From contig NZ_LR593886.1 in assembly GCF_901538265.1 (NCBI RefSeq), forward strand, positions 8,143,738 to 8,207,737: DNA of 64,000 nucleotides. The letters run 5' to 3'. Source of the stretch: Gemmata massiliana. GTDB taxonomy: Bacteria; Planctomycetota; Planctomycetia; Gemmatales; Gemmataceae. Made by a program: the position numbers and the translations under genes. Below the pieces are notes generated by a model. That model ran no database searches. It was not told where the DNA came from and saw only the letters and a program-made list of their open reading frames with translations. Of this stretch, positions 26,657-64,000 are shown in pieces. Each line of letters opens with the position of its first letter. Within the stretch, counting starts at the first letter, position 1.

Positions 26657-27484
26657 ATGGACGCGGCACTCGACTCGCTTCTGACCGAATTGAACGACCC
26701 GGACGCGGACGTGCGGCGAAGGGCCGTCTTCCGCGTGTCCGCAGCTCTCTCGGATAACCCCACAGTTCGTGCGGCCGTCCTCGGCGCGCTCAACGACTCG
26801 GTGTGGTGCGTGCGCGAAGCGGCGGCGAGTGTTGTGGCGCAACTCCCCGATGCGGACGGGAGCATTTATGCTCCACTCTTCGCGTTAACGCTACGCGATC
26901 CGAGTCCACACGTCCGACGCGCGGCGGCAGCGGCAATCGGCCCGCGTATCCGCCCCGAACACGATTACGGTCGCGCGGTCCGTCACGTCTTCGAGCGCCA
27001 GCGCATTCGTGCGGCCGCGGCTTTAGGTCACATCGCGTCCGAATGCACTGGGGAAGCGGTTCCGTTACTCGCACTGTGCCTCGCCGACGCGCACCCCAAA
27101 GTGCGTCTCACCGGGCTGCGTGCCCTGACGCAGTGGGAACCGGGCGCGGTATTACCGTTACTCCCAACAATCGTGCGGAAGTGTGCGGAAGCCGATACCA
27201 ACATCGCGAGCGCCGCACGCGACGTCTGTCTGCGTGTGCTGAACGACCCGGCAGCGGAATTACTGCGCCCGCTACTCCCGTACCCCGGAACGAACGACGT
27301 GGCCGGCGCGCGGACGGCGATTGCGGCGTTACCCACCGCTCACGCACTGCGACGGACTTGGGAATCACTACCACCACCGACGGAAGAACACCAAACAGCC
27401 CATCGGTTCGCCAGGCACCTCGCTACCGTATGCGAGCGCGTGCTGACCGAACCCGGTAACCCGCGCCAACCGAAAGCCCCGTGA
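26657..27484 (+). CDS. HEAT-repeat protein
   Basis: 275 aa without a signal peptide. Repeats such as LLTELNDPDADVRRRAVFRVSAAL, LGALNDSVWCVREAAASVVAQLPD and LRDPSPHVRRAAAAAIGPRIR show a HEAT solenoid of about six units, then a less regular C-terminus. GGGG precedes the ATG. The stop codon overlaps the 3' end of the convergent tRNA-like unit by about nine bases. Confidence 0.82.
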   Translation: MDAALDSLLTELNDPDADVRRRAVFRVSAALSDNPTVRAAVLGALNDSVWCVREAAASVVAQLPDADGSIYAPLFALTLRDPSPHVRRAAAAAIGPRIRPEHDYGRAVRHVFERQRIRAAAALGHIASECTGEAVPLLALCLADAHPKVRLTGLRALTQWEPGAVLPLLPTIVRKCAEADTNIASAARDVCLRVLNDPAAELLRPLLPYPGTNDVAGARTAIAALPTAHALRRTWESLPPPTEEHQTAHRFARHLATVCERVLTEPGNPRQPKAP

Positions 27485-27548
27485 CGGGACTTGCACCCGC
27501 CATCTCCGGCTCCGAAGGCCGGCGTCTTGCTCGTTAAACGATCGGGGC
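27476..27548 (-). tRNA. tRNA-like unit A (anticodon UCG)
   Basis: Folds as a cloverleaf: D stem GTTT/AGAC with loop AACGAGCA, anticodon stem CCGGC/GCCGG with loop CTTCGGA (U33 present, anticodon UCG at 27513-27515), variable loop AGATG, T stem GCGGG/CCCGT with loop TGCAAGT. The acceptor pairs for six bases (GCCCCG/CGGGGC) and then has an extra unpaired base. G18G19 and U55 are missing. No CCA is encoded. Whether it is charged is unknown; arginine would be the reading by anticodon. Confidence 0.55.
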
Positions 27549-27551
27549 GAA

Positions 27552-27623
27552 TGCACCGAGAGGGACTTGCACCCCCGTCCCCGCTTTAGCAAAGCGGCGT
27601 CTTACTCGTTAGACGATCGGTGC
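27552..27623 (-). tRNA. tRNA-like unit B (anticodon GCU)
   Basis: All four stems pair: acceptor GCACCGA/TCGGTGC, D stem GTCT/AGAC, anticodon stem CCGCT/AGCGG with loop TTGCTAA, T stem GGGGG/CCCTC with loop TGCAAGT. The anticodon is GCU (27588-27590), which would read serine codons, but the variable loop is only four bases. Bacterial serine tRNAs have a long variable arm, so it is not a normal tRNA-Ser. G18G19 and U55 are absent. It begins three bases after unit A. Confidence 0.6.
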
Positions 27624-27630
27624 GACACAT

Positions 27631-27652
27631 CAGATCCCCGTGAGGAACGTGC
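27631..27652 (-). pseudogene. 3' fragment of a D-type tRNA-like unit
   Basis: cagatccccgtgagg (27631-27645) is identical to the 3' acceptor/T-arm end of unit D at 31384-31398. Similarity decays after that and the rest of the unit is missing. Confidence 0.5.
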
Positions 27653-27656
27653 GACG

Positions 27657-28157
27657 TCACCCGGTCCAGTCGCTCTCGTAGATCGAGTCGTGCGGCACCC
27701 CGGCCATCCGCAGGTAGACCGACAGGATGCCGCGGTGGTGAGCGGTATGGCTGAACACCCACTTCCGCAGGCAGTCGCCCTTCGTCATGGTGAACAGCAC
27801 CTGCCCGCCCGCCTTCATCGTCCACGTCTCGGCCATCACCGCGTCCGGTGTCCCCTTCAAGGCGGCCAACGATCCGGCCAGGTTCGCGTCGAAGTGCTGC
27901 AAGAGTTGGGCAACGTTCTTCTTCGTGGGCGGAGGTACGGCCTCACCTCCGGGCGGGGCGATGTCCAGTTCGGGCTGTTGGAGGAGGATCGGCCCCCACC
28001 CGGCGATCTCGGCCAGGTGGCTCGCGTTCCAGCCGATGGTCCGGAGCCCGCTCCCCGGCGACCAGTCCAACTTGTCGTCCGGCACCCGGGCCAGCAGCTT
28101 CCGAGTGACGGCCATCTCGCGGGTGAATTCCGGCACCATCAATTCTGAAATCAGCAT
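27657..28157 (-). CDS. DinB-family protein (DinB_2 four-helix metal-binding fold)
   Basis: 166 aa. NASHLAEIAGW supplies a first metal-binding His, and KWVFSHTAHHRGILSVYLRMAG supplies the typical HxxxHR-type pair at the end. This is the layout of the DinB/YfiT superfamily of putative metal-dependent transferases. AAGGAG lies before the ATG. The function is usually thiol-transfer or unknown. Confidence 0.8.
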   Translation of the reverse strand: MLISELMVPEFTREMAVTRKLLARVPDDKLDWSPGSGLRTIGWNASHLAEIAGWGPILLQQPELDIAPPGGEAVPPPTKKNVAQLLQHFDANLAGSLAALKGTPDAVMAETWTMKAGGQVLFTMTKGDCLRKWVFSHTAHHRGILSVYLRMAGVPHDSIYESDWTG

Positions 28158-31134: not shown

Positions 31135-31270
31135 GCGACCAGTACAAGCCGCGCCCAGCGATCGGCGACGAGAGGGTTACGGGGTGATTACTTCCTTTTG
31201 AAGCAACTTTCCAAGGCGGCCGCGTAATACACGTGCGGGTGGCACCGGCCTTGGTAACGTGACGCCAAAC

Positions 31271-31295
31271 GACTTACTCGTTAAACGATCGGGGC
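31271..31295 (-). pseudogene. 5' fragment of an A-type tRNA-like unit
   Basis: acttactcgttaaacgatcg (31272-31291) followed by gggc matches the acceptor and D-arm half of unit A (27526-27548). The anticodon and 3' halves are missing. Confidence 0.5.
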
Positions 31296-31298
31296 GAA

Positions 31299-31368
31299 TG
31301 CACCGAGAGGGGCTTGCCCCCGTCTCCGACCTGCAGAGTCGGCGTCTTACTCGTTAGACGACCGGTGC
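31299..31368 (-). tRNA. tRNA-like unit C (anticodon UGC, degenerate)
   Basis: Paralogue of unit B: acceptor GCACCGG/TCGGTGC, D stem GTCT/AGAC, anticodon stem CCGAC/GTCGG with loop TCTGCAG. The anticodon would be UGC (31333-31335), but position 33 is C instead of U. The T arm has lost two bases, leaving a 5-nt loop. It is probably a decaying copy. Confidence 0.45.
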
Positions 31369-31384
31369 GGCACATCGAAACCAG

Positions 31385-31459
31385 ATCCCCGTGAGGGACT
31401 TGCACCCCCATCTCCGCGGTTTATGAGACCAGGCGTCTTACTCGTTAAACGAACGGGGA
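31385..31459 (-). tRNA. tRNA-like unit D (anticodon CAU), left attachment site
   Basis: Acceptor TCCCCGT/ACGGGGA pairs fully. The D stem is GTTT/AGAC with loop AACGAGTA, and the T stem GGGGG/CCCTC has loop TGCAAGT. The anticodon arm is 20 bases instead of 17: TGGT pairs with ACCG below loop CTCATAA, then a bulged C, then CC/GG. The anticodon is CAU (31423-31425). Its 5' half (31421-31458) is the core of the attachment site; the first acceptor base comes from the inserted element. Confidence 0.5.
31421..31458 (+). repeat. attL core, 38-bp direct repeat
   Basis: Identical over all 38 bases to 61866-61903; starts ttatgagaccaggcgtctta and ends in gaacgggg. It coincides with the 5' half of tRNA-like unit D. 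A tyrosine recombinase gene lies 125 bp inside. The repeats bound the 30.4-kb element. Confidence 0.8.
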
Positions 31460-31583
31460 AACCCTGATAACCTTAGCTTTCTGCGTCTCACTCGTTTATC
31501 GCACTACTCACTTTTACTACCTTTATTACTACCGACATACTGTTCGGGTTGCAATTGTCATCGCTCCCGCCCAAAGGTGCAGC

Positions 31584-32822
31584 ATGAGCGGCGGATCGCT
31601 GAAGAAGCCGAAGAAGCCCTACGCCGAGTTCCCCCTCACGCCGCACGCCAGCGGCAAGTGGATGAAGAAGATCCGGGGCACTATTCACTATTTCGGTGCC
31701 TGGGCGCGCCGGGTCAATGGGAAACTCGTGCGCGCCGAGCGCGACGGCTGGAAAGAGGCACTGGAAGCGTACAAGGCGGTGGCCGACGATCTGCACGCCG
31801 GGCGCACACCGCGGGTGAAGAAGGACGGGCTAACAGTCGCGGACTTGGCTAACCAGTTCCTCACGTCGAAGCTGAGGAAGGTCGAGTCCGGCGAACTGAG
31901 TCCGAACCTCTTCTACGATTACAGGCTGATAACCGACCTGCTTGTTGCATCGTTCGGATCGACCCGTCTCGTGAACGACCTGGCAGCGGATGATTTCTCT
32001 CAGCTCCGGGCAACAATGGCGAAGCGCTGGGGGCCAGTGCGACTGGGTAACAGTGTTACACGGGCAAAGTCGGTGTTCAAATTCGGTTATGAATCCGGCT
32101 TGCTCGAACGTCCGGTGCGGTTCGGACCGGATTTTGTTAAACCGGACAAGGCGGTGTTGCGCCGGCACCGGGCCGCTCGCCCCGCGAAACTGTTCGAGCG
32201 GAAAGACCTGCTCGCGATGATCGAAGGCAAGGGGGCCACGGATGACGGCGGCGAAAAGATGGTCCGGGCCGATCACACGTTGTGCGCGATGATCCTGCTC
32301 GGCGTGAACTGCGGGTTCGGTAACACCGATTGCTCGGAACTGACGTTCACCGCACTGGATCTGAAGAAGGGCTGGATCGACTTCCCCAGACCAAAAACCG
32401 GGATCGCGCGTCGGTGCCCACTTTGGTCCGAAACGGTCGCAGCGATCCGTGGCTCGATCGCGGTTCGACGTGAACCCGCTTCCCCAAAGGATGTCAACCG
32501 TGTGTTCTTAACGGCGCGCGGAACCCCGTTGATCGTTCAGAAGCGGCCCGGCTACCGAAACGACCTGATCAAGAGCCGCCTTCACCACCTGCTCAAAGTT
32601 CTCGGCATCCTGCGCGCGGGGATGAGTTTCTACGCCTTCCGCCACACCTTTGAAACGATCGCTGGCGACTCGAAGGACCAAGTGGCCGTTAACCTCATCA
32701 TGGGTCACACGGACCCGTCGATGGCCGCGGTGTACCGCGAGCGCATCGACGATGCCCGGCTCCGCGCCGTGGCCGATCACGTGAGGAACTGGCTCTGGCC
32801 TGACCGTGCGACCGCTGAGTGA
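31584..32822 (+). CDS. tyrosine recombinase (integrase)
   Basis: 412 aa. An N-terminal SAM-like DNA-binding part (LTVADLANQFLTSKL... about 85-190) precedes the catalytic domain. There GVNCGFGNTDCSELTFTAL takes the place of the usual GLRxSEL segment, so the first catalytic Arg is missing or displaced. The other residues are visible: Lys in FPRPKTG, Arg-His in FYAFRHTFETIA, His in IMGHTD and the nucleophile Tyr in AAVYRERIDD. This variant pattern (GFGNxDC; YAxRHTF) is common in planctomycete integrases, so it is likely functional. It reads away from the left attachment site. Confidence 0.9.
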   Translation: MSGGSLKKPKKPYAEFPLTPHASGKWMKKIRGTIHYFGAWARRVNGKLVRAERDGWKEALEAYKAVADDLHAGRTPRVKKDGLTVADLANQFLTSKLRKVESGELSPNLFYDYRLITDLLVASFGSTRLVNDLAADDFSQLRATMAKRWGPVRLGNSVTRAKSVFKFGYESGLLERPVRFGPDFVKPDKAVLRRHRAARPAKLFERKDLLAMIEGKGATDDGGEKMVRADHTLCAMILLGVNCGFGNTDCSELTFTALDLKKGWIDFPRPKTGIARRCPLWSETVAAIRGSIAVRREPASPKDVNRVFLTARGTPLIVQKRPGYRNDLIKSRLHHLLKVLGILRAGMSFYAFRHTFETIAGDSKDQVAVNLIMGHTDPSMAAVYRERIDDARLRAVADHVRNWLWPDRATAE

Positions 32823-40925: not shown

Positions 40926-41546
40926 CTACCGATCGCGGCTCGCCAGGAATGATTGGCCCTCGGCAGTCACCACTTTCCTGTCAGCCACCGACACGTCGAG
41001 CCACGTCCGTTCGGGGGTGTCGTCTGGCAGCCGCTGCACGGCGATCCCTTCGGTGTTAAGTGTCGTGTGTTGCCGACCGAAGGCGATCAGATCGGGGGCT
41101 GCAACACTGACGAACCCTTCCTTCTCCAACCCCTCGCATAGCTGAACCGCACGCCCAACGTCACCAGAGAGTTCGTTGTAGGGGGGCGGCTTTGCCGCGA
41201 GGTGCGATTGCAACTCGGAGAACTCGGGCCAGGGAGATTTTGTCGTCATCACGAACTGAGTTACCCCCCATGCAGTAAACGCTTCGGTCGCACCCCCAGG
41301 GGCGAAGTCGAACCGCAAGAAACGGCCATCGGACCCGTGTTTGAAATCACATTGATAGCCGTGAAAGTAGTACTCCCACACCCCGTTCGGCAATGAGCCT
41401 CGAGGGCGACAGCGCCTTTCCATCCAAAGGTAAAACAGTTCCTGGGAAGGAACGCCGAGCGCGGACGCGAGGTCTTCCACCAGCGGCCGCCGGATCCTTA
41501 CAAACTGCTTGCAGGCCATCAGAAATTGAGCGGTCAGCGTATCCAT
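40926..41546 (-). CDS. probable immunity protein (DUF6896-like) for the RHS toxin
   Basis: 206 aa from the ATG at 41546 (AGG upstream); a GTG at 41573 is an alternative that nearly abuts the toxin stop. LTAQFLMACKQFVRIRRPLVEDLASALG...WEYYFHGYQCDFKHGSDGRFLRFDFAPGG matches the layout of the DUF6896 family (helical start, then 'G..W.Y.FHG.GC.F....G...DFDF'), recalled from memory. DUF6896 proteins are often next to polymorphic toxins. The second half (ELSGDVGRAVQLCEGLEKEGFVSVAAPDLIAFGRQ) is a separate domain. Position directly downstream of the toxin tip is the classic immunity location. Confidence 0.6.
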   Translation of the reverse strand: MDTLTAQFLMACKQFVRIRRPLVEDLASALGVPSQELFYLWMERRCRPRGSLPNGVWEYYFHGYQCDFKHGSDGRFLRFDFAPGGATEAFTAWGVTQFVMTTKSPWPEFSELQSHLAAKPPPYNELSGDVGRAVQLCEGLEKEGFVSVAAPDLIAFGRQHTTLNTEGIAVQRLPDDTPERTWLDVSVADRKVVTAEGQSFLASRDR

Positions 41547-41579
41547 CGTAGCACCTGAAGAACGAATTACCACACACCG

Positions 41580-44500
41580 TCACTTGAGTCCCGGCGCCGG
41601 AACCATTTCGTTGAGGCCGAAGGTCGGGATCTTGCTTCCCGTTTTGTCGATGATCTTGAGGTTCGCTTCAGGAATTGCGACGTCTTCTGCCAGAGCTGCT
41701 CTATAGCGGTGGTTGCCGTTGAATAGGTACCGCTTGCCGCCGATTTCCCAAATTTCAATTGGGCCGTCTTTGGCAAGGGCGTCTGCCCAGAATTTTTTCG
41801 AATTTGCGCGAATTTGTAACCTCATCCCCTGGACAATCTCGGGGTGGAAGACCGCATCCGTCGAGCCAGCGATGTTGAGAGATTTCACATCAACCGAGTT
41901 GTTATGGACGAGGATTTGGGCGCGGCCGACGGCGTAGCAGTGCAACTCCTCGACGTGGAAGTTGTACACCGGCAGTTTGGCGTGTCGGGCCACCAGTTCG
42001 GTGATCGCGGCCTCTTCCCCCGAGCGGAGCAGGAGAACGTCCCCAACCCGTAAGTCGATGGCGTCCACCCACCGCCCGCCCCGGTCGTACCCGTCCGGGT
42101 TGTCGGGGACGTGTTCGGGCTGCGGGCGACCACGCAACCCCTCGCCCCGGGCCACCCACCACGGGTGGTGGCCGGTCGATTCGATCATCTCTCCGGCCAC
42201 CGTCGCGGTGACCATGTCACCGTCGTGCTCATGCCGGTACGTCTCGATGACTTGGCGCAACTTCCACTCACCGACTACGAGGTCGAACGCCCACACCCGA
42301 TCCGCCGCCCGCACGTCCTGAATCGGCTTGAGGCCGTGCTCGGTGCCTACTACCGTGTCCGCGGGAAAGCAATTTACGCATGCCGGCTTACGAAGTTTGC
42401 GAATGATTGGGCCAGCCGCTTTTCCGGCGCCAAACGTTATAACTGCAATTGCACTATTTTTTGCGTGCTTTTTAAAGGATTTTTTTGCATATTCGTCCCA
42501 TTCTTCGGGCGAGGCATTGGCCTGGGGGGCCTTCTTGGCGAGGTTGCTATGCCAGTCCGGTTCGTACATCTCTCGACCGAGAAGCTGTGTATTCACCGTC
42601 CACTGTCCCACCCGGATCAGATCCCCGCCGATCCGGAACGGTTCCGCGATGGTGTCAATCACCCCGTGAGCGAACTTACCTCCGGGTGAGTCTGGACCCG
42701 TCGGTGCTACACTAATTAATGGATCGAGGCCGCTGGGGTCCGTTACATTCGTTGAGTTATTCCCAACGAACCGATATAGATTCATGTCTCCCGCCGCGTA
42801 CCGGATCGGGTCCAGCGTAACCCACCGTCCGAGGATCGGGCTGTACCAGCGCTGGTTGGCCTCGAGGAACCCCGAGGTCGTATCGAGCCGCATGCCCTGG
42901 AACGTGTGTGCCCACGCATACGCGCTGCTGCCGAGCGTGGTCCCGCTCGCGTTCGTGACGGTGACATTCCCGTACGGGTCGTAGAGGTAGCGCTCGACCA
43001 CGGCCCCGCTGCTGTTCGCGAGCGCGGTCACGTTAAAGTTGGCATCCTGCTGCACCCACAGGCGCTCCTCTAACCCGTTGCCCGTGCTCCCGTCCGCGTC
43101 CCGGTCCCGGAGCACCATCGCGTTCACGTACACGGGGCTCCACACGTACCGGGTCTTCGTGGTGCTCCCGACCTTCTCTTCGAGTACCTGCCAGTCCCTA
43201 GAGTAGAACAGGTCCGTCGTGGTCCCGCTCGCGGTCTCGGTGATGCGCCGGTTGAGCCCGTCGTAGGTGTACGTCTTGAGTACGGTCCCGCCCGAGTTTT
43301 TGACGGTCACGAGCCGGTTCCACGCGTCGTACACGTACAACTTACCGGTCTCGTCCTTGGTCATGTTCCCGTTCGCATCGTAGGTGGGCGTCGTCACCCC
43401 GCTGATGCTCGTGATCTCGTTCTGCTTGTTGGCCGTGCGCGCCTGCGCCGTGCCGTTGGTGGTCACGCTGTCGAAGTTACCTAGCGCGTCGTAGTCCCAG
43501 TTCTGGGTCCGGGACGCGGTTCCCGTGACCCCGGTCTTGGTCCCGTTGAGCGTGCCCCGGCTGTACGCGGTCAGTTGGTCCAGCGCGTCGTAGGTGTACA
43601 CCTCCCCAAGGGTCGCGCTCACCAGGTTGTCCCGGTACGTGCGGTTCCCGGCCTGATCGTACCCGTACTGGAACCGGTCCGTCGCGGTGCCCGTCGTCGG
43701 GTTGAGCCAGCGCTGGTCGACTATGCGCCCGAACCGGTCGAGCCCGGTGTACTGGTCCCCCGCGTCCCCGTTCGACTCGCCCGCGCGCTTGATGTAGCTC
43801 AGGTCCAGGCTCGGACCCGAGTGTGCGCGCCGGACCACGGTATCGAGGCCCAGGTAGTCGTAGCTCTCCACGGCTCCGTTCGGGTCGCTCAGCGAGGACA
43901 CCCGGCTGACCGCGCTGTTGATCCCGGACGAGTAGTTGAACGTGAGTACGTAGCCCGACGGGTACGTGATGGACGTGAGCCGGGACTGGTTCGTGGTCCC
44001 GCCCCCGTTGAAGTTGTACGCGTACTGGACCTTGGGCGTGCTCCCGGTCACCGCGCCCGAGTGCGACTGCCACTCGGCCGTCAACTGGCCCAGTCCGTTG
44101 TACTCCCGGGCGACCTGATTCACGATCGCGTTGGTCGCGTCCCGGCTCGTGACCAGGGACGCGTTCCCGAGCGTGTCGTAGCCCGTCTCGATCATCCCCA
44201 CGTTGGTGCCGGACGCGGTCACCGAGTCGCTCACCACGCGCCCGAGTACGTCATACGTCAGCACGTGGACGTTCCCGTTACGGTCCGTTGTGGTGACCGT
44301 CTGCCCGAGCGCGTTGACCGTCACCGATTCCTGCTCGGTCGCGCTGGCCGCGCCGGAGGTCGGGTCGGCCCACTGGGTCAGGCGCACGATCTCGTTGGAT
44401 TCGACGGCGCTGCCGGTCGCGGACGAGACCCCGTACACGTACCCGGTGGTCTGCACACCCCCGCCCGACAGGTACGCGATCACACTCGTGATCCCGGCCC

Positions 44501-47500
44501 CGTTGTACATGTACCCCGTGGCCTTATCGTCGACGTCTGACACTACCCCGTCCACGAAGTTCGCGACCGTGCGCGTGGTGCGCCCGAGCGCGTCCGCGTA
44601 GGTCCGGGTCACGCGCCCCGCCGCATCCGTCACCTCGGCCGCGAGACCTACGTCCCCGCCCGCGTTGATCGTGGACACGGAGGCGGCCGGCGCGGTCCCG
44701 CCCGTGAGCCCGGCCCCGTTGGCCGCGATCGCCGACTGGTACGCGCCCGCCTTGGTCCCGATGAACCGGATTTCCCAACCCCCGCCCGCCGCGGCCGAGA
44801 CCTGTACGTTCCCGGCCCCGATCGACGCGAGCCCCGCGAGCGCGGTCTGCACGGTCGCGGCCGACGCGTTGTACGCGATGGCCCCGGTCGTGTTCACGCC
44901 GAACGTGAGGGTGAACGTGCCCCCGGTCGGACTGCCGGTCAACTTGATCACCTGGACTGCGTCGGTCGCGTACTTGGTCGAGGTCACGAGCACGGTCGCG
45001 GACCGACTCGGCACGGCGCCCGGTCGGCTCCACGATGAGCCCCCGTTGGTGCCCACGTCCACGGCCGCGATCGTGCGGTCCGCGAGGTCGTAGTAGTATC
45101 CCATGTAGCTGACCCGGGCCGCGATCCCGGTCGTCGGGGTTCCCAGCGCCCCGGTCCCGCTCGCGTCGTGGAACCGGTCCCGCGTGGTCACCTGGCGCAC
45201 GTTCCCGCTCGGGTCGTACACGTACTCGACCTGAGTCAGAACCGTGTCCCCGACCACGTCGTCCGCGTCCGCGTACCCTGCGTCACCGCCCCAGTCCCCG
45301 GTGTACGCGGTCGTGACGCGCCCGGCCCCATCGTACGCCCATTTCTGCACCAGCCCGTTCGGCGCGGACGTCTTGATCGTCAGCCCGCGCGCGTCGTACC
45401 AGGTGTCGGTGGCCAAGCTGTTAGTGCTCACGGCCCCGGTGGCCGGGTTCACACTGAACACCCGGGTCCGGAACGCGCGCCCCAACTCGTCGAACTCGGT
45501 CGCCCCTTGTGCCCGGAGCAGGCTCGCGGACAACGGTTGCGGCACCCCGCCCGTCACGGTCGGAGCGACCCCGTCCGCGTCGTACACCTGGGCCATCGTG
45601 ACCCGGTCCAGATTGTCGTATGTATAGAACACTAGTTGCCGGTTCACCGAGGTCGACTCGGTCGTCTCGACCCCACTCTTGACGGCCACGGCCCGGTTGC
45701 GCCAGTCGTACCACGTCTGGGTCACGCGCGCCGCCGCGCCGCCGCCCGGGTACTCGGACACTTTGGTCAGGTTCCCGTCTCCGACGGCGCCGTTGTCGTA
45801 CTGGTACTCGCGCACCTTCACCAAGTTGGTGCCCGTGGTGTTCGTCGGGGACCAGTACCCGGTCGTGGGCGTGTCGTCGGTCCCGACCCACTCGCTCACG
45901 ACCTCCCCGAACCCGTTGCGCACGTACCGGGTGATCGTGCCCTGGGGCGTTTGCACCCGCTTCAGCTGCCCGGTGTTGTCGTACTCGTACCGGGTGCGAT
46001 AGAAATTCACGCCCTCGGCCCCGAGCGCGCTCGAGGTCGAGTACGCGAGCCCGGACGGGTTGAAGTACGCGTCAGTGTGGGTCAACTGCCCCGCCTCGTT
46101 GGTGTAGCTGCGCGACAGCGACTGCACCTGCGAAACGGACTCGGTCCCGGTCGGGCGCCCCCCCGACACGGTCGGGGGGGCACTCATCGTCAGGGTCTCG
46201 GAATACCCGTTGGCTCGGTCCACTCGAACCACTGCGGTCGGCCCGGTCGGGCGGTTCGTGGTAGCGTCCCACCCGGCGTAGTACCGCACCTCGTGGGCCG
46301 TGTCGTTGTACACCGTGTAGTCGATGCGCCCGTTCGGGTACGTGGTTTTGGTGGCTCGGCCGAGTGAATCCACCTCGTACGAGGTCACGAGATGCAACCC
46401 GCCGCCCGGGGGCGTAACCCATCCGCTCGGCAGGTTCGTGAACGTACCCGTCTGAGCCGTATCCACGTCCGTGATGATTTTCACCACCGCACCGCTAGAA
46501 GTATCATAAGCGGTGTATGTAATGAACCCGGCCTCATCCCTGATCCACACCGGGCGACCGAACGCGTCGCTAACGACCGTGGCCGCGGTCGCGCTGTTCG
46601 ACCCATTCTGCGCGGTGGTCACCGTCGGCAGGGTGGCCGTAACCGTGGCCGGTTGGTTGGTGCCCGCCAGGAACGTGTAGGCGTAGTTGGTGGTTTGCCC
46701 CCCGGTCCCGTTATCGTTCCGGTACACGGTGTCCGACGCGAGGTGGAAGAAGTTGAGCCCCCCCACCGTGTTCATGATGTACGTGAGCGACTCCTTGGGC
46801 ACCGCCGTACTCGTCTCCCCCTGTCGAATTGCAATTGTCTTGAGGTACCACACTGCGTCCCCGGGCACCAGCGTCGTCGCCGTGGTCGAGGCCCCGTACG
46901 TGTAATTCGTCACCAATCCGGACGAATCACTCAGATACTGAGCGTTGCCCGAGACAAAACGTACCAGATCCGGGTATGCGTTGCTGTACCCGGTCACCGC
47001 TGACGGGTTCGCGACCAGTACCACCCGCCCCTTTGAGTCGTACTGGTAGTACGTGATCGACACCAACCCGGTGGTCACGTCCGCAAAGGCCGTGAGCATC
47101 ACCCCGCCGAACGCGTTCGTGTAAACGGTATTGGTGCTCCCGTCCGGGCGCGTCTCGACCGTCTTTGTGGCCCACGAGTTGTGCCCGATCGTGTTGGAGC
47201 TGGTCGTGTACGAGTACGTGTACGCACCCTGACCCGCCGAACACGAGGTGCACCCGGCTCCCGAGACCGTCTCCTTGCTGGCTCGATGTAGAGCGTCGTA
47301 CTCGAAATACTTGTCCGCGTACGTCGCCACGGTCGCGTCCGCGGTCGTCTCAACGGCCGCATCGGTTCCACCCTGTGCCGCCTTGAGTCGCGCGTACGCG
47401 TCCGGTCCCAGCTCGTACTTGAGCCCGCCCCGGTATCCGATCTGTGTGGCCCCGTTGAACGTGTCGCCGGTGTAATAACGGTAGTACCGCTGGTCGAGCA

Positions 47501-49043
47501 CCGAACCGGCCGCATCGCTCACGGTCAGGCGCTTGAGGTCGCCCCAGTTGCCGTTGGCGTCCCCCGACACGTAGTACGCGTACGCGACCTGTTGGACCGT
47601 GGCCCAGGCGCCGGCCCCGACCTTGCGGCGCAGGGTCACCGAGGCCAGCTTCCCGGCGTTCGTGTCGCCCGAGCCCAGATACGCGTACAGGTACGATTCG
47701 GTCGTCGTCACCCCGCCCACCGTCTGAGCCGCCTGTACCTCGAGTGGGCGCCCGTCGGTGTCGCGAGAGGTGACTTGAGTAATTAAGCCTCCCGGGTCCG
47801 TGCGCGACTGGAACGCCCCGCGCGAGACCACCGGCCGGGCCGATCCGAAGTCCAGGTACCGATACACAGTCCCGTCGTCCGCGGTAATCACGAATTGATC
47901 GTTGGCCCCGTCGTAGGTGACCGTGGTGTTGTAAAAGAAGCGGGGGGCATACGTGGCGTAGTTCCCGTCTCCGTCCGGGGTGCCTTGGCCGTCGAAGAAG
48001 TGCGCGGTGATGGCATCGGTCACCAAGTAGAGGCTCGACCCAGTGCGGTACAGCCGGGGTTGGTCTCCGGCCACCCACCCGTTCCCGGCGTTAGTGCCAG
48101 CTGAGTAGCTTGGATCGTTGGACCAAGACTGAGTAGTCCCCCACCCACCTCCGAAGCCGGTGGACGACAGCCCAGGAGCAACAACTAGGTTGACCCCGTC
48201 CACGTACCGGATCGGATTACCGGTTGATGATTGAGGGTTGGGTAGCGGCGGCGGGGCCGTCGGGTTAACTTGACTTTGGACGCAGAGTGGCCCCAGCGTG
48301 GCGAGTGATTTTGGGACAAACGCCGGCAGAGCCCCGCCCGGAACTTTAACGTTCGCCTCATAGAGGTACGAAGCGTCTTCCTTAATGTCCTCTTGAAACA
48401 GCTCCAAGCTACTATCGGCGAGCCAGTTCGGTGAGGTCGTGAACCAGAACGATTCTGTCGAGCCTGGCGCGATGTAGGTCTTGGTGAACGGATGCGTGTC
48501 GTGCGTCCAATAAGCAATCCCGTCCGAATACCCTTTGTACCAGTCGGTTGAGGTTCCGAAATTAACCGGAAGCTCCACATCCTCGAAGTATTCGACATTC
48601 ACGTACCCTTCGCCGTTGATAGTCTCGGACGGGTGCAGGGTGGTAGAAGCGTTCTCGACCACATACTTCCAGAGAAACAAACCTTCGAACCCAGGAGCGT
48701 CGTAAGTCACCGTCTGCGTCAGATTTAGGGATCGGGTGCCTCCAGCATCGTCAATGTGAGACATTGACCCGGTCGATGAATATATCAGGGTCGTAGACGG
48801 GACGACTCGGTCCTCGATCGCCTCCAAGGTCAGACGGGCGCGTTGCGCATCTACACGACCAGAACGAGGTCGCTTCATCAAGCGATCTCGCAGGGCAAGC
48901 AGTCGGGGAAACAGGGTGAACGGAGACGGAAGGCGAATGGGTAGAGAACGGACCAAGGGCGTCTCCAAGAAATCAAAGGAATCACATCCGCGGCCCATTG
49001 TTTTGAGCCGACACGAACGTAATGAGCTACGTCCAGAAAACAA
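41580..49043 (-). CDS. giant RHS/YD-repeat polymorphic toxin with HINT and ParB-like C-terminal domains
   Basis: 2487 aa. The N-terminus holds LTLEAIEDRVVPS, the planctomycete motif of exported proteins (usual form LExLEDRxVPS). A beta-rich part (about 85-330) is followed by about 1700 residues of YD repeats (YxYDxxGR, for example GRVTTAYTGDWGG; YDALDQLTAYSRG), interrupted near 1363-1463 by a separate beta domain. The RHS core closes at TTSGFLEANQRWYSPILGRWVTLDPIRYAAGDMNLYRFVGNNS with DPSGLDP. A HINT protease domain (Cys2225 in NCFPADTVVGTEHG, GHHPWW, VHNN end) precedes a 105-aa tip with EIWEIGGKRYLFNGNHRYRAALAE, a ParB/Srx-like fold known from toxin tips. The start may be Met16 or later. GC falls in the tip. 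Confidence 0.88.
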   Translation of the reverse strand: MFSGRSSLRSCRLKTMGRGCDSFDFLETPLVRSLPIRLPSPFTLFPRLLALRDRLMKRPRSGRVDAQRARLTLEAIEDRVVPSTTLIYSSTGSMSHIDDAGGTRSLNLTQTVTYDAPGFEGLFLWKYVVENASTTLHPSETINGEGYVNVEYFEDVELPVNFGTSTDWYKGYSDGIAYWTHDTHPFTKTYIAPGSTESFWFTTSPNWLADSSLELFQEDIKEDASYLYEANVKVPGGALPAFVPKSLATLGPLCVQSQVNPTAPPPLPNPQSSTGNPIRYVDGVNLVVAPGLSSTGFGGGWGTTQSWSNDPSYSAGTNAGNGWVAGDQPRLYRTGSSLYLVTDAITAHFFDGQGTPDGDGNYATYAPRFFYNTTVTYDGANDQFVITADDGTVYRYLDFGSARPVVSRGAFQSRTDPGGLITQVTSRDTDGRPLEVQAAQTVGGVTTTESYLYAYLGSGDTNAGKLASVTLRRKVGAGAWATVQQVAYAYYVSGDANGNWGDLKRLTVSDAAGSVLDQRYYRYYTGDTFNGATQIGYRGGLKYELGPDAYARLKAAQGGTDAAVETTADATVATYADKYFEYDALHRASKETVSGAGCTSCSAGQGAYTYSYTTSSNTIGHNSWATKTVETRPDGSTNTVYTNAFGGVMLTAFADVTTGLVSITYYQYDSKGRVVLVANPSAVTGYSNAYPDLVRFVSGNAQYLSDSSGLVTNYTYGASTTATTLVPGDAVWYLKTIAIRQGETSTAVPKESLTYIMNTVGGLNFFHLASDTVYRNDNGTGGQTTNYAYTFLAGTNQPATVTATLPTVTTAQNGSNSATAATVVSDAFGRPVWIRDEAGFITYTAYDTSSGAVVKIITDVDTAQTGTFTNLPSGWVTPPGGGLHLVTSYEVDSLGRATKTTYPNGRIDYTVYNDTAHEVRYYAGWDATTNRPTGPTAVVRVDRANGYSETLTMSAPPTVSGGRPTGTESVSQVQSLSRSYTNEAGQLTHTDAYFNPSGLAYSTSSALGAEGVNFYRTRYEYDNTGQLKRVQTPQGTITRYVRNGFGEVVSEWVGTDDTPTTGYWSPTNTTGTNLVKVREYQYDNGAVGDGNLTKVSEYPGGGAAARVTQTWYDWRNRAVAVKSGVETTESTSVNRQLVFYTYDNLDRVTMAQVYDADGVAPTVTGGVPQPLSASLLRAQGATEFDELGRAFRTRVFSVNPATGAVSTNSLATDTWYDARGLTIKTSAPNGLVQKWAYDGAGRVTTAYTGDWGGDAGYADADDVVGDTVLTQVEYVYDPSGNVRQVTTRDRFHDASGTGALGTPTTGIAARVSYMGYYYDLADRTIAAVDVGTNGGSSWSRPGAVPSRSATVLVTSTKYATDAVQVIKLTGSPTGGTFTLTFGVNTTGAIAYNASAATVQTALAGLASIGAGNVQVSAAAGGGWEIRFIGTKAGAYQSAIAANGAGLTGGTAPAASVSTINAGGDVGLAAEVTDAAGRVTRTYADALGRTTRTVANFVDGVVSDVDDKATGYMYNGAGITSVIAYLSGGGVQTTGYVYGVSSATGSAVESNEIVRLTQWADPTSGAASATEQESVTVNALGQTVTTTDRNGNVHVLTYDVLGRVVSDSVTASGTNVGMIETGYDTLGNASLVTSRDATNAIVNQVAREYNGLGQLTAEWQSHSGAVTGSTPKVQYAYNFNGGGTTNQSRLTSITYPSGYVLTFNYSSGINSAVSRVSSLSDPNGAVESYDYLGLDTVVRRAHSGPSLDLSYIKRAGESNGDAGDQYTGLDRFGRIVDQRWLNPTTGTATDRFQYGYDQAGNRTYRDNLVSATLGEVYTYDALDQLTAYSRGTLNGTKTGVTGTASRTQNWDYDALGNFDSVTTNGTAQARTANKQNEITSISGVTTPTYDANGNMTKDETGKLYVYDAWNRLVTVKNSGGTVLKTYTYDGLNRRITETASGTTTDLFYSRDWQVLEEKVGSTTKTRYVWSPVYVNAMVLRDRDADGSTGNGLEERLWVQQDANFNVTALANSSGAVVERYLYDPYGNVTVTNASGTTLGSSAYAWAHTFQGMRLDTTSGFLEANQRWYSPILGRWVTLDPIRYAAGDMNLYRFVGNNSTNVTDPSGLDPLISVAPTGPDSPGGKFAHGVIDTIAEPFRIGGDLIRVGQWTVNTQLLGREMYEPDWHSNLAKKAPQANASPEEWDEYAKKSFKKHAKNSAIAVITFGAGKAAGPIIRKLRKPACVNCFPADTVVGTEHGLKPIQDVRAADRVWAFDLVVGEWKLRQVIETYRHEHDGDMVTATVAGEMIESTGHHPWWVARGEGLRGRPQPEHVPDNPDGYDRGGRWVDAIDLRVGDVLLLRSGEEAAITELVARHAKLPVYNFHVEELHCYAVGRAQILVHNNSVDVKSLNIAGSTDAVFHPEIVQGMRLQIRANSKKFWADALAKDGPIEIWEIGGKRYLFNGNHRYRAALAEDVAIPEANLKIIDKTGSKIPTFGLNEMVPAPGLK
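44655..44955 (-). other. embedded beta domain within the RHS repeats
   Basis: Encodes about residues 1363-1463: VQVIKLTGSPTGGTFTLTFGVNTTGAIAYNASAATVQTALAGL, then GAGNVQVSAAAGGGWEIRFIGTKAG. The TGAIAYNASAATVQTAL pattern is a repeat module known in many large Gemmata exported proteins (seen from memory, unnamed here). It interrupts YD repeats. Confidence 0.55.
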
Positions 49044-61633: not shown

Positions 61634-61865
61634 GCGACCACAACGCCCTTTCAGCCGACGTGCAAGTTCATCCCCGAACTCGCGGGACACGCGGGCAATA
61701 TCTGGTAACTCGATCACCCTTTTGGGGCGGTAGTAATTACTACCGTTGGGGTCGATTTTAGTGAACTATTGGGGGCGTTGAGAGTAACAGGCAATCGAAC
61801 AAAATGCAGTAATTCCTAGGCGTTCGCAGCCATTTTCGCGATCCGCTCAAAACGCGACGCCAGCA

Positions 61866-61903
61866 TTATGAGACCAGGCGTCTTACTCGTTAAACGAACG
61901 GGG
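61866..61903 (+). repeat. attR core, 38-bp direct repeat (5' half of a D-type tRNA-like unit)
   Basis: Identical to 31421-31458. The sequence to its left is not tRNA-like, so this is only the half unit left by integration. Four bases to its right starts the next tRNA-like unit. Confidence 0.8.
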
Positions 61904-61906
61904 CAG

Positions 61907-61978
61907 CGCACCGGGACGGACTTGCACCGTCTTCTCCGCCCTGACTGGGCGGCATCTTACTCCGTAGACGACCGGTGC
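61907..61978 (-). tRNA. tRNA-like unit E (anticodon GUC)
   Basis: All stems pair: acceptor GCACCGG/CCGGTGC, D stem GTCT/AGAT with loop ACGGAGTA (this copy has GG), anticodon stem CCGCC/GGCGG with loop CAGTCAG, T stem GACGG/CCGTC with loop TGCAAGT. The anticodon is GUC (61943-61945), but position 33 is A, not U. No CCA is encoded. It ends 59 bases before the ATG of the next gene on the other strand. Confidence 0.6.
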
Positions 61979-62037: not shown

Positions 62038-62883
62038 ATGACCGACGACGAACTCGCGTTCATCCGGGCCGCGATCGCGGAACCCGACGAAGACACGATC
62101 CGCCTCGCGTACGCCGACTGGCTCGACGAACAGGGCGACGCAGTGGCCGCCTCGCGCGCCGAGTTCGTGCGCCTCCAGGTCCGGCGCTCGCGCCTGGACG
62201 TCTTCGACCCGGAGCGCACCAACTTACTCGAACAAGAGACCGCGTGCCTCCAGAAACACAAGCGCGACTGGAACGGGCGCGTTCACCGGTACCTCACGCG
62301 CGCCAAGTTTCCGGGCAAGGTGGACGCCCGCCGCGGACTCATTCGCGGTTGGAACTACCACCGCGGGATGATCGCGCGCGTGACCGCACCCGCAGAAGCA
62401 CTGACGACGCACCCGGATCTGATGTTCGCGCTCGGCCCGGTCGCGCACCTGCATTTGGCGACGTGGCCGGCCGCAGGTTGGGAACCCCAGGTTGTGCGCC
62501 AACTGGCGGAACCTCTGTCCCGGCTCAAGATCGTCTCGTTCGCCGGAGCAACTTGGACCCATCCGCCACTGAGCGTCGCGAGCCTGGAACCGTTCGCCCA
62601 GGTTCCGCTCCTCGACTTGCGAGCGGTGACAGTCGACAGAATTACGTTGGAACTTCTCGCCCGCACTTGGTCGGGGGTAACATCGCCGATCGTGTTGTAC
62701 CGCGCGACCGTTACCACCACGCGCACCGAACGGTGGGGCGGGCGAGCGTACCAGGTTCAGGATTCGCGCCTGGAAGTTCGCGTGATCGACCCGCACAAAA
62801 AGTGGGACGCCCTCCGTCTCGAATTCGCGGACCTCACCGGAGAAGTTCTTTCGCCCGTCCCTTACCAGGGCACGCGGCGGTAA
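62038..62883 (+). CDS. TIGR02996-domain protein
   Basis: 281 aa from the ATG at 62038, chosen because GGAGG lies seven bases upstream. DDELAFIRAAIAEPDEDTIRLAYADWLDEQGDAVAASRAEFVRLQVRR is the Gemmata companion domain. The rest has irregular leucine-rich-like segments (LIRGWNYHRGMIARVTAPAEALTTHPDLMFALGPVAHLHLATWPA...; PLLDLRAVTVDRITLELLARTW), as usual for these proteins. It overlaps the convergent SDR gene by 22 bases. Confidence 0.8.
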   Translation: MTDDELAFIRAAIAEPDEDTIRLAYADWLDEQGDAVAASRAEFVRLQVRRSRLDVFDPERTNLLEQETACLQKHKRDWNGRVHRYLTRAKFPGKVDARRGLIRGWNYHRGMIARVTAPAEALTTHPDLMFALGPVAHLHLATWPAAGWEPQVVRQLAEPLSRLKIVSFAGATWTHPPLSVASLEPFAQVPLLDLRAVTVDRITLELLARTWSGVTSPIVLYRATVTTTRTERWGGRAYQVQDSRLEVRVIDPHKKWDALRLEFADLTGEVLSPVPYQGTRR

Positions 62884-64000
62884 TCCTTGAACAGTACGCC
62901 GGACGCCGGTTGCCCGCCCCCGATACCGGTAAACACCGGGTCGAGGATGCGGGCCGCAGCGTCGGTGGCGTCGAGCGGAATGCGCCCGCCGGTCGCCGCA
63001 AACTGCTCGGCCGCGGGCACGGCAGATTGCACCGAGAACCAGCCCGGATCGACCGCCGTCAGGAACACGCGGTCCGCGACGAACTCCGGCGCGGACGTGC
63101 GGACCATCATGTTCAGCCCGGCCTTCGCCATGTTCGTGTGGGGGTGGCGCCCGTTCTTTTCACTCGCGAACTGCCCCTCCACCGCGGACACCATTACGGC
63201 GAATCGGTCGCGCGGCGGTCCGGCACGAAATAGAGGCCGCAGCGCCCGCAAAAGTAAGAACGGTGCGAGACAATTCACCGCGTGAACTTCGACCAGTTCG
63301 ACGGTACTCACGTCTTCGTGGGCCAAGCCCCAACTGTTTTCCGCGCGCAAATCCAGCGGTTCACCGTCTGGAGCCAGTTGCCCTTGCGGAAACGCTTCGA
63401 TGACCTCGTCGCCAGCAACGAATGGAAGGAGCGCGAGTTCTGCGTGCCAGTTTGCATTTGGGGGCGTCGCATCCAAAGCGGGAAGCAGTGCGTCCGAATC
63501 CGCAACCGGAGTGAGCATTTCGCGCGCGAGGGTGGACAGACTCGCGCGCGGTTCCCGTTCGCCCGCAACGAGCGTGTGGTAGTAAGCGGGCGGGCGGCGA
63601 ACTGTTTGTGCGGCATTCGCCACAAAGATATCGAGGCGCCCCACCTGCTGAGCGAGCGATGTCGCGAACCGCTCGACCACGGCCAGCGCACGCAGGTCCA
63701 ACCCCACGAACCGGAGCCGCCCGGCCCATTCTTCTGCGTCCGGCTCGGTCGCGAACCGGCGCGCCGCGTCCTTTGGGAACCGCGTGGTCGCGACGACGTC
63801 CGCGCCGGCACGCAGTAGCTTCAGAACGGTGTGATACCCGGCTTTGATCCGCCCGCCCGTCACCAACGCCGTGCGTCCGCGTAGATCGGCCGTCTGGTTC
63901 CGCTTGGCGAAGTTCAGTTCGGCGCACGCCGGGCACAGCGAATCATAAAAGTGGTGCGGTTGCTCGAACTGCGCCTTGCAGACGTAACACGTGACTCCGC
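62862..64000 (-). CDS. short-chain dehydrogenase with N-terminal zinc ribbon (5' end outside window)
   Basis: The frame is open to the right edge of the window. At its start CYVCKAQFEQPHHFYDSLCPACAELNFAKRNQTADLRGR is a zinc ribbon (CxxC...CxxC). The SDR domain follows: LVTGGRIKAGYHTVLKLLRAGADVVATTRF (a GxxxGxG-like cofactor loop reading GGRIKAGYH), LDIFVANAAQT (NAA motif), VNCLAPFLLL and a C-terminal DPGWFSVQ. The usual Tyr-x-x-x-Lys appears as HTNMAKAGLNMM, with the Tyr missing. A Zn-ribbon/SDR fusion of this type occurs in several bacterial genomes; its substrate is unknown. Confidence 0.8.
   Translation of the reverse strand, partial: GVTCYVCKAQFEQPHHFYDSLCPACAELNFAKRNQTADLRGRTALVTGGRIKAGYHTVLKLLRAGADVVATTRFPKDAARRFATEPDAEEWAGRLRFVGLDLRALAVVERFATSLAQQVGRLDIFVANAAQTVRRPPAYYHTLVAGEREPRASLSTLAREMLTPVADSDALLPALDATPPNANWHAELALLPFVAGDEVIEAFPQGQLAPDGEPLDLRAENSWGLAHEDVSTVELVEVHAVNCLAPFLLLRALRPLFRAGPPRDRFAVMVSAVEGQFASEKNGRHPHTNMAKAGLNMMVRTSAPEFVADRVFLTAVDPGWFSVQSAVPAAEQFAATGGRIPLDATDAAARILDPVFTGIGGGQPASGVLFKDYRRVPW

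Follow-up and report, generated by a model that had tools for sequence, protein, structure and literature searches.

A tandem array of putative non-decoding tRNA-like units in Gemmata

The cell-wall tRNA-Gly of Staphylococcus, whose T loop reads GUGC, and the genomic islands that reside in tRNA genes, where the duplicated part is usually the 3' one, are among the closest described counterparts of the locus reported here. According to PMC4052509, G18-G19 of the staphylococcal tRNA-Gly is replaced by UU or CU, and the molecule is thought to escape translation. These positions belong to the tRNA elbow, a contact site for RNase P, for the ribosome and for modification enzymes (PMC4810234). We analysed a stretch of 64,000 nucleotides from Gemmata massiliana (the window; the genome is denoted G000), in which a first-pass annotation had noticed five tRNA-like units and had suggested that they may be expressed RNAs with a job outside ordinary translation.

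All five units were found, on the minus strand: A (27476-27549; anticodon loop CTTCGGA, 6-bp T stem, T loop TGCAAGT), B (27552-27623; anticodon loop TTGCTAA), with A beginning 2 nt on, C (31299-31368; anticodon loop TCTGCAG, T loop 2 nt short), D (31385-31459; bulged anticodon stem, with the attachment core GCCTGGTCTCATAA inside) and E (61907-61978; anticodon loop CAGTCAG). The shortened T loop of C, the bulged stem of D and the lack of U33 in C and E, all remarked upon before, were each confirmed in the sequence, and three partial minus-strand copies had been overlooked. One, at 27631-27666, upstream of B, is possibly the decayed 3' end of a D-type unit (weak, 69% over 36 nt); another, A' (31270-31297), which follows C, is the 5' piece of a second unit A and part of a direct repeat of the A-B junction (92% over 52 nt); the third, at 61866-61903, is a displaced half of D. 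The near identity of the D arm and T loop among the units was also borne out. The D-arm motif is exact in A to D and has three mismatches in E; exact copies occur five times in the 10.1-Mb genome, all within the window, one in each of the units A to D and one in the displaced half of D, and at two to three mismatches there are two elsewhere in the genome and two more in the window, one of which is E. The reversed control of this pattern gave two matches in the genome scan. In the cloverleaf of the five units 96.1% of paired cells are standard, against 86.5% in shuffles. Their elbow is altered: G stands at position 55 in the T loop, and the aligned D loop has A18-G19 instead of G18-G19. With the Rfam tRNA model (gathering cut-off 29 bits) B scores 59.1, D 38.1 and A 29.1 bits, and C and E, absent from the match list, lie below the RF00005 cut-off; only two units are called by ARAGORN, B as Ser GCT and D as Met CAT. 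Two of the original arguments for oddity do not stand on their own. The missing CCA end is unremarkable here, since none of the 53 other tRNA matches inspected (one partial; 82 matches in the genome) is followed by an encoded CCA, and an unusual T loop, taken alone, is also found in otherwise ordinary-looking array tRNAs.

The array was sought in relatives with two covariance models, one built from units A-E (R1) and run on 95 genomes of the family, the other built from all 19 units eventually collected (R2) and run on 102 genomes of the order. The search of the 95 genomes recovered the array in G000, G011, G015 and G026. Matches of at least 60 bits with R1 were confined to five genomes of the genus (six in G000, three in G011, five in G015, four in G026 and one in G009), making up 19 units, each of at least 61 bits; at 68 bits or more R2 found only the same five among the 102 genomes. 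In a phylum sample of 392 genomes, with 12 candidates scored per genome, two further genomes had matches of 62-64 bits, inside tRNA arrays. Five of the six matches in G000 lie in the window and one at 7.31 Mb. This last is a single unit at a second locus (G000:C1:7312890-7312962; L102:7891-7963), common to G000 and G009 (G009:C1:1427880-1427950) over 412 bp at 85%, and the units there look eroded.

In the four array genomes the unit order E-D-(X)-B/C-A is kept, with D split in G000 and G011, and the array is bounded by the same two genes. The TIGR02996-domain gene (62038-62883, plus strand) is divergent from the array, and the HEAT-repeat gene (26657-27484, plus strand) is convergent and overlaps the 3' end of A by 9 nt. 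The TIGR02996 orthologues are 83% identical in G011, 63% in G026 and 50% in G015, the best match in the other 15 genomes of the genus reaching 78 bits; for the HEAT protein the values are 70, 55 and 47%, with 36 bits as the best elsewhere and no match in seven genomes. The outer member of the conserved block (62862-64000, minus strand, continuing past the window) is also common to the array genomes; in its protein a short-chain dehydrogenase (SDR) is preceded, at the N terminus, by a zinc-ribbon-like CxxC pair. Apart from these genes, frames of at least 200 aa around the block in G026 and G015 (16-18 kb) gave, at 1e-20, a single match (32%) to the window or the flanks examined, and a core neighbour gene of the window is 2.8 Mb away in G026 and on a different contig in G015. 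The predicted model of the TIGR02996 protein (mean pLDDT 65) had no PDB match at E 0.001 or better; that of the HEAT protein is all-helical, and most of its 23 PDB sequence matches are designed alphaRep proteins. Membership of these neighbours in a defence system was considered and dropped, PADLOC yielding only weak repeat matches (16-17 bits for the HEAT protein, none for the TIGR02996 and SDR proteins). A viral, phage or plasmid origin of the array was also dropped, after the following searches. The scan of genome contigs with the D-arm pattern gave 32 stretches, of which only L050, from Gemmata, scores as a unit (74.3 bits, the next 21.1). The pattern was found in five viral contigs, none with a gathering-score Rfam match, and the covariance search, with E limited to 1, listed just one of them, L066, with 15.6 bits. 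BLAST of the G015 array matched nothing among phages and plasmids, and the pattern scan of viral contigs confirmed no close relative of the element integrase described below. No paper on this array was found in the literature searched, which mostly excluded subscription journals.

Unit D had been described correctly as a bulged tRNA-like unit; its role as an integration site had been missed. The 5' half of D through the anticodon loop (31421-31458, minus strand) is repeated perfectly over 38 bp in the displaced half beside E (61866-61903), and between the two copies lies a 30.4-kb integrative element (31460-61865), recognised by the flanking repeat and by a tyrosine integrase gene adjoining D (31584-32822, plus strand, PF00589). 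A related 21-kb element in G011, whose integrase is 79% identical, splits D at the same 14-bp core GCCTGGTCTCATAA; there the direct repeat of D at the element ends is 14 bp, as against 38 bp in the window, and the 5' half has not been rebuilt. D is unsplit in G015 and G026. In G000 and G011 the anticodon arm of D also serves a tyrosine integrase as its chromosomal attachment site. The rebuilt D of the window has T1, pairing with A72, and the displaced half has G1. Two further sites were noticed by eye: GGTAGTAATTACTACCG (61729-61745), a possible integrase arm site that is also present near the E-side end of the G011 element, and a degenerate copy of the D-arm motif at 31484-31505, between D and the integrase, which is perhaps an integrase site. 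The interior of the element holds a 2,487-aa frame in which RHS repeats occur together with a pretoxin HINT domain (41580-49043, minus strand), after which comes a DUF6896 gene (40926-41573, minus strand) in a polymorphic-toxin-like arrangement. A second duplication, of which the copies are D-C-A' and D-like remnant-B-A, surrounds 3.6 kb with a DinB-like gene and occurs only in G000 among the four array genomes.

The array is present in four of 19 genomes of the genus and missing from 15, three of the 19 being less than 90% complete. In a one-gene GluQ-RS tree G000, G009 and G011 fall together and G015 with G018, the place of G026 is not resolved, and the array genomes form no clade. In the close relative G009 both flanks exist, on two contigs and with the SDR gene broken, and the array, the TIGR02996 gene and the HEAT gene are absent there, which is most simply explained by loss of the array with rearrangement. 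Since D is split in G011, at least this unit is dispensable. The array is thus accessory: conserved where it is kept, yet dispensable.

Patchy distribution, the apparent loss in G009 and the broken D of G011 would all suit the view that the units are decaying remains of a captured mobile tRNA array, that is, pseudogenes drifting at different speeds, and so would the many tRNA arrays in Gemmataceae genomes. Such decay had been named beforehand as the reading to accept if expression, and covariation in related genomes, were lacking; the sequence half of this test did not bear it out. In an alignment of the 19 units from five genomes, however, stems that differ still pair, as had been claimed for the window, and they covary far above shuffles: 96.0% of pair cells are standard (84.9% in shuffles), 11 pairs have double changes (5.5) and double-change cells number 40 (12.5), none of these values being reached in any of 500 shuffles. 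Built on the model, the alignment leans to structure, and the shuffle test is inflated by relatedness among its rows. Two checks agree with the result: a control in which the partner was slid by 1-3 columns lowered the double-change cells to 0-6, and RNAalifold found double changes in 12 of 21 pairs of the same alignment. T8, A14, A21, G19-C56 and G53-C61 are each present in 18 or 19 of the 19 units.

Sequence identity gives the same answer for E, D and A. Unit E is 97, 86 and 82% identical to its counterparts in G011, G026 and G015, and unit A 97, 85 and 76%; D is 92% identical in G026 and 89% in G015. At fourfold-degenerate sites of the neighbouring HEAT, TIGR02996 and SDR genes identity to G000 is only 29-51% in G026 and G015 (58-84% in G011). 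Units that stay 76-92% identical next to such sites cannot be ascribed to plain decay. The nearest relative of E or D among the units of another genome is always its counterpart, and the same holds for A in G011 and G026; in G015, where A carries an insert, other units are closer. The bulged stem of D is kept in G000, G026 and G015, three species, and its 3' half in G011. In G000 the folding of D is hardly superior to that of shuffled sequences (z -0.7; -0.1 in G026 and -2.0 in G015). The damaged units, namely C in its T loop and G015 A with an enlarged anticodon arm, as well as the weak conservation of B, fit decay better: B of G000 is 90% identical to G011 B and only 74% to G015 B, no closer than to the other G015 units, which makes the B/C assignment uncertain. 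Ordinary tRNAs, with 87-100% identity in 22 true pairs, are better conserved than the units. Taken together, decay is an unlikely explanation for the array as a whole. The same evidence bears on the proposal that the units are conserved mainly as DNA attachment sites of integrative elements. D does serve two related elements in this way, and the D-arm motif is nearly constant among the units; against this, the stems covary, and constraint extends to E and A, outside the attachment core, and to G015 and G026, where D is unsplit, so that we regard this proposal as most improbable. The units look like tRNA bodies kept by evolution in which decoding has been given up.

The elbow of the units is shared by other tRNAs of planctomycetes. 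In the model alignment A18 and G19 are present in 19 of 19 units and G55 in all 18 that have that position; an extra GG two places earlier in the D loop is found in six units, namely E of all four array genomes and D and X of G015. We infer that A18 pairs with G55. ARAGORN output was surveyed for 379 unique tRNAs from the loci examined, five of them array units. Among those with T55, 348 of 349 have GG in the D loop, the exception being a doubtful call with a 3-nt D loop; among those with G55, 26 of 30 have AG without GG, and the other four have AGG and are readable either way, as are six T55 tRNAs. For the coupling of positions 18 and 55, Fisher's p is 6e-35, a value that counts related tRNAs as independent. 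Search bias is an unlikely source of it, because an uncoupled tRNA looks more normal to ARAGORN than one with the double change. In arrays L162 and L163, from other families of the phylum, five of seven G55 tRNAs have AG without GG and two (Glu and Cys of L162) have both, and all 23 T55 tRNAs have GG. Pooled, with any copies common to both sets counted twice, 31 of 37 G55 tRNAs have AG without GG, six are ambiguous, and 371 of 372 T55 tRNAs have GG. Both kinds can be neighbours: in L162 (G232:C180, another planctomycete family) five of ten tRNAs have G55 and the other five T55 with GG. Among the types represented are Gly, Glu, Thr, Ala, Ile, Leu, Arg, Met, Val, Lys, Cys and Gln. All five A18/G55 tRNA-Gly(TCC) share the anticodon loop CTTCCAA; they were grouped by anticodon, so it is the other four positions that are informative.

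Two large arrays, L002 (G000:C1:8388936-8391308, 20 tRNAs by ARAGORN) and L001 (8288110-8288838, 8 tRNAs), lie within about 250 kb of the window and have mostly ordinary T loops. A Met-anticodon A18/G55 tRNA sits in a segment of about 3.7 kb that is present twice in G000 at 93% identity (L012 at 6.37 Mb, L013 at 2.50 Mb). The elbow is treated as near-universal, and a coupled 18/55 swap would be a natural experiment on it; an RNA with G55 can have no pseudouridine at this position. Older selection work reportedly dealt with D- and T-loop variants in suppressor tRNAs. The 18/55 swap itself was not found in the literature searched, which included portions of PMC4810234, PMC7566577 and PMC7912444 and mostly excluded subscription papers. 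That A18/G55 is a second natural elbow of planctomycetes, which many accessory tRNAs have acquired by exchanging both positions together, and that Gemmata has made from one such lineage non-decoding mimics that serve a tRNA-binding protein as bait or ligands, is a combined proposal that we advance tentatively and consider rather unlikely to hold in full.

Differences per site between counterparts, pooled over the E, D and A groups, were counted for each part of the molecule; gaps in the anticodon arm of D remove or shift some columns, and with this reservation the anticodon loop is the fastest part (28/91), ahead of the other loops (variable 14/60, D 12/120, T 11/105) and of the stems (D 20/120, anticodon 17/150, acceptor 22/210, T 11/150). 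As a control, 16 ordinary tRNAs of G000 and the best-scoring ones of G011, G026 and G015 were paired as reciprocal best matches with the anticodon ignored. In 22 of 23 pairs, 87-100% identical, the anticodon and anticodon loop were the same; the remaining pair, which joins Pro falsely to His at 75%, accounts for the only two differences in 161. Among the units, in contrast, counterparts of E, D, A and B have unlike anticodons, and the amino-acid class switches. In the order G000, G011, G026, G015 they read GTC, GTC, GCT, GTC for E and CAT, CAT, CAT, CAA for D. U33 is present in 11 of the 18 units with a readable 7-nt loop and absent in seven. In 13 of 15 units (D and G015 A excluded) the bases at 32 and 38 are able to pair, and U32-A38 occurs in normal tRNAs too. 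Such drifting loops fit a job outside ordinary translation.

It could be objected that the units are unusual tRNAs that still work and supplement the decoding set, their anticodon arms being relaxed. ARAGORN does call B and D, A, B and D pass the Rfam cut-off, and A18/G55 array tRNAs such as tRNA-Gly(TCC) otherwise look normal. A decoding set is nonetheless distinctly unlikely, considering the class switches between counterparts, the missing U33 in seven of 18, the bulged stem of D, the short variable loop in a unit with a Ser anticodon, and the fact that the most variable part here is identical in the 22 ordinary pairs. Another possibility is that the units donate amino acids outside the ribosome like the staphylococcal cell-wall tRNA-Gly, which also departs from G18-G19 (PMC4052509); there both bases are replaced, in the units only position 18. 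They share, however, no anticodon (a Gly anticodon is found in one of 18 readable units, GCC of G015 B), no long variable arm and no G3-U70 pair (3-70 is A-U in 12 and C-G in seven), and the discriminator base varies between units; one amino acid for all of them is therefore hard to envisage. An extra glutamyl-tRNA synthetase tied to the array was looked for and rejected, since the array genomes have one GluRS and one GluQ-RS, as do most relatives. A donor role is consequently very unlikely.

From these results, the following explanation may be proposed: a conserved Gemmata locus would encode up to five tandem tRNA-like RNAs that keep the L-shaped body and have abandoned decoding. Their ancestor would be a tRNA gene, perhaps of the tRNA-Glu type, a suggestion that comes from the match in G054, the one inspected of three near 60 bits. 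The array may be transcribed from upstream of E; consensus scans revealed no promoter in the vicinity of D, and a single 9-of-12 match that falls within its displaced half. Enzymes that process tRNA ends would cut the transcript into units, CCA would be added, and the RNAs would be stable. The tRNA body might then bind a tRNA-handling protein, for example a tRNA-cutting or tRNA-modifying enzyme, as a decoy or ligand, with the changing anticodon loop serving as bait. We assign a probability of about 0.48 to this explanation as a whole, that is, to non-decoding tRNA mimics with a decoy or ligand role as the most likely mechanism. That the units are expressed non-decoding RNAs of some kind seems probable; a decoy or ligand for a tRNA-binding protein, considered alone, uses all the facts and is still quite doubtful. 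Selection on the fold in combination with a drifting anticodon suggests that it is the tRNA body that has a function. To our knowledge, such a function has seldom been described for arrays in bacterial chromosomes.

Compared with canonical tRNA (RF00005), the units have the cloverleaf, the arm lengths, T8, A14, A21, G19-C56 and G53-C61, and A, B and D pass the cut-off, which C and E do not reach; they differ in having A18 and G55 instead of G18 and U55, a variable anticodon loop and an optional U33. Like the non-proteinogenic tRNA-Gly of S. aureus (PMC4052509), they lack an intact G18-G19 signature, whereas that tRNA has one anticodon and one amino acid, and the array units keep G19, vary their anticodons and are unlike one another. 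The element in D resembles Islander-type genomic islands in tRNA genes (PMC4383910) in having a tyrosine integrase beside a split target, with a regenerated copy and a displaced fragment at the element ends; unlike those, it has duplicated the 5' half up to the anticodon loop, its target is a tRNA mimic, and the G011 target is not regenerated. Finally, the accessory tRNA arrays of bacteria and phages are likewise tandem sets of tRNA-like genes with short spacers, the planctomycete ones including A18/G55 tRNAs, but they comprise many amino-acid types, whereas the units described here are all paralogues of one family, set in a conserved block of genes.
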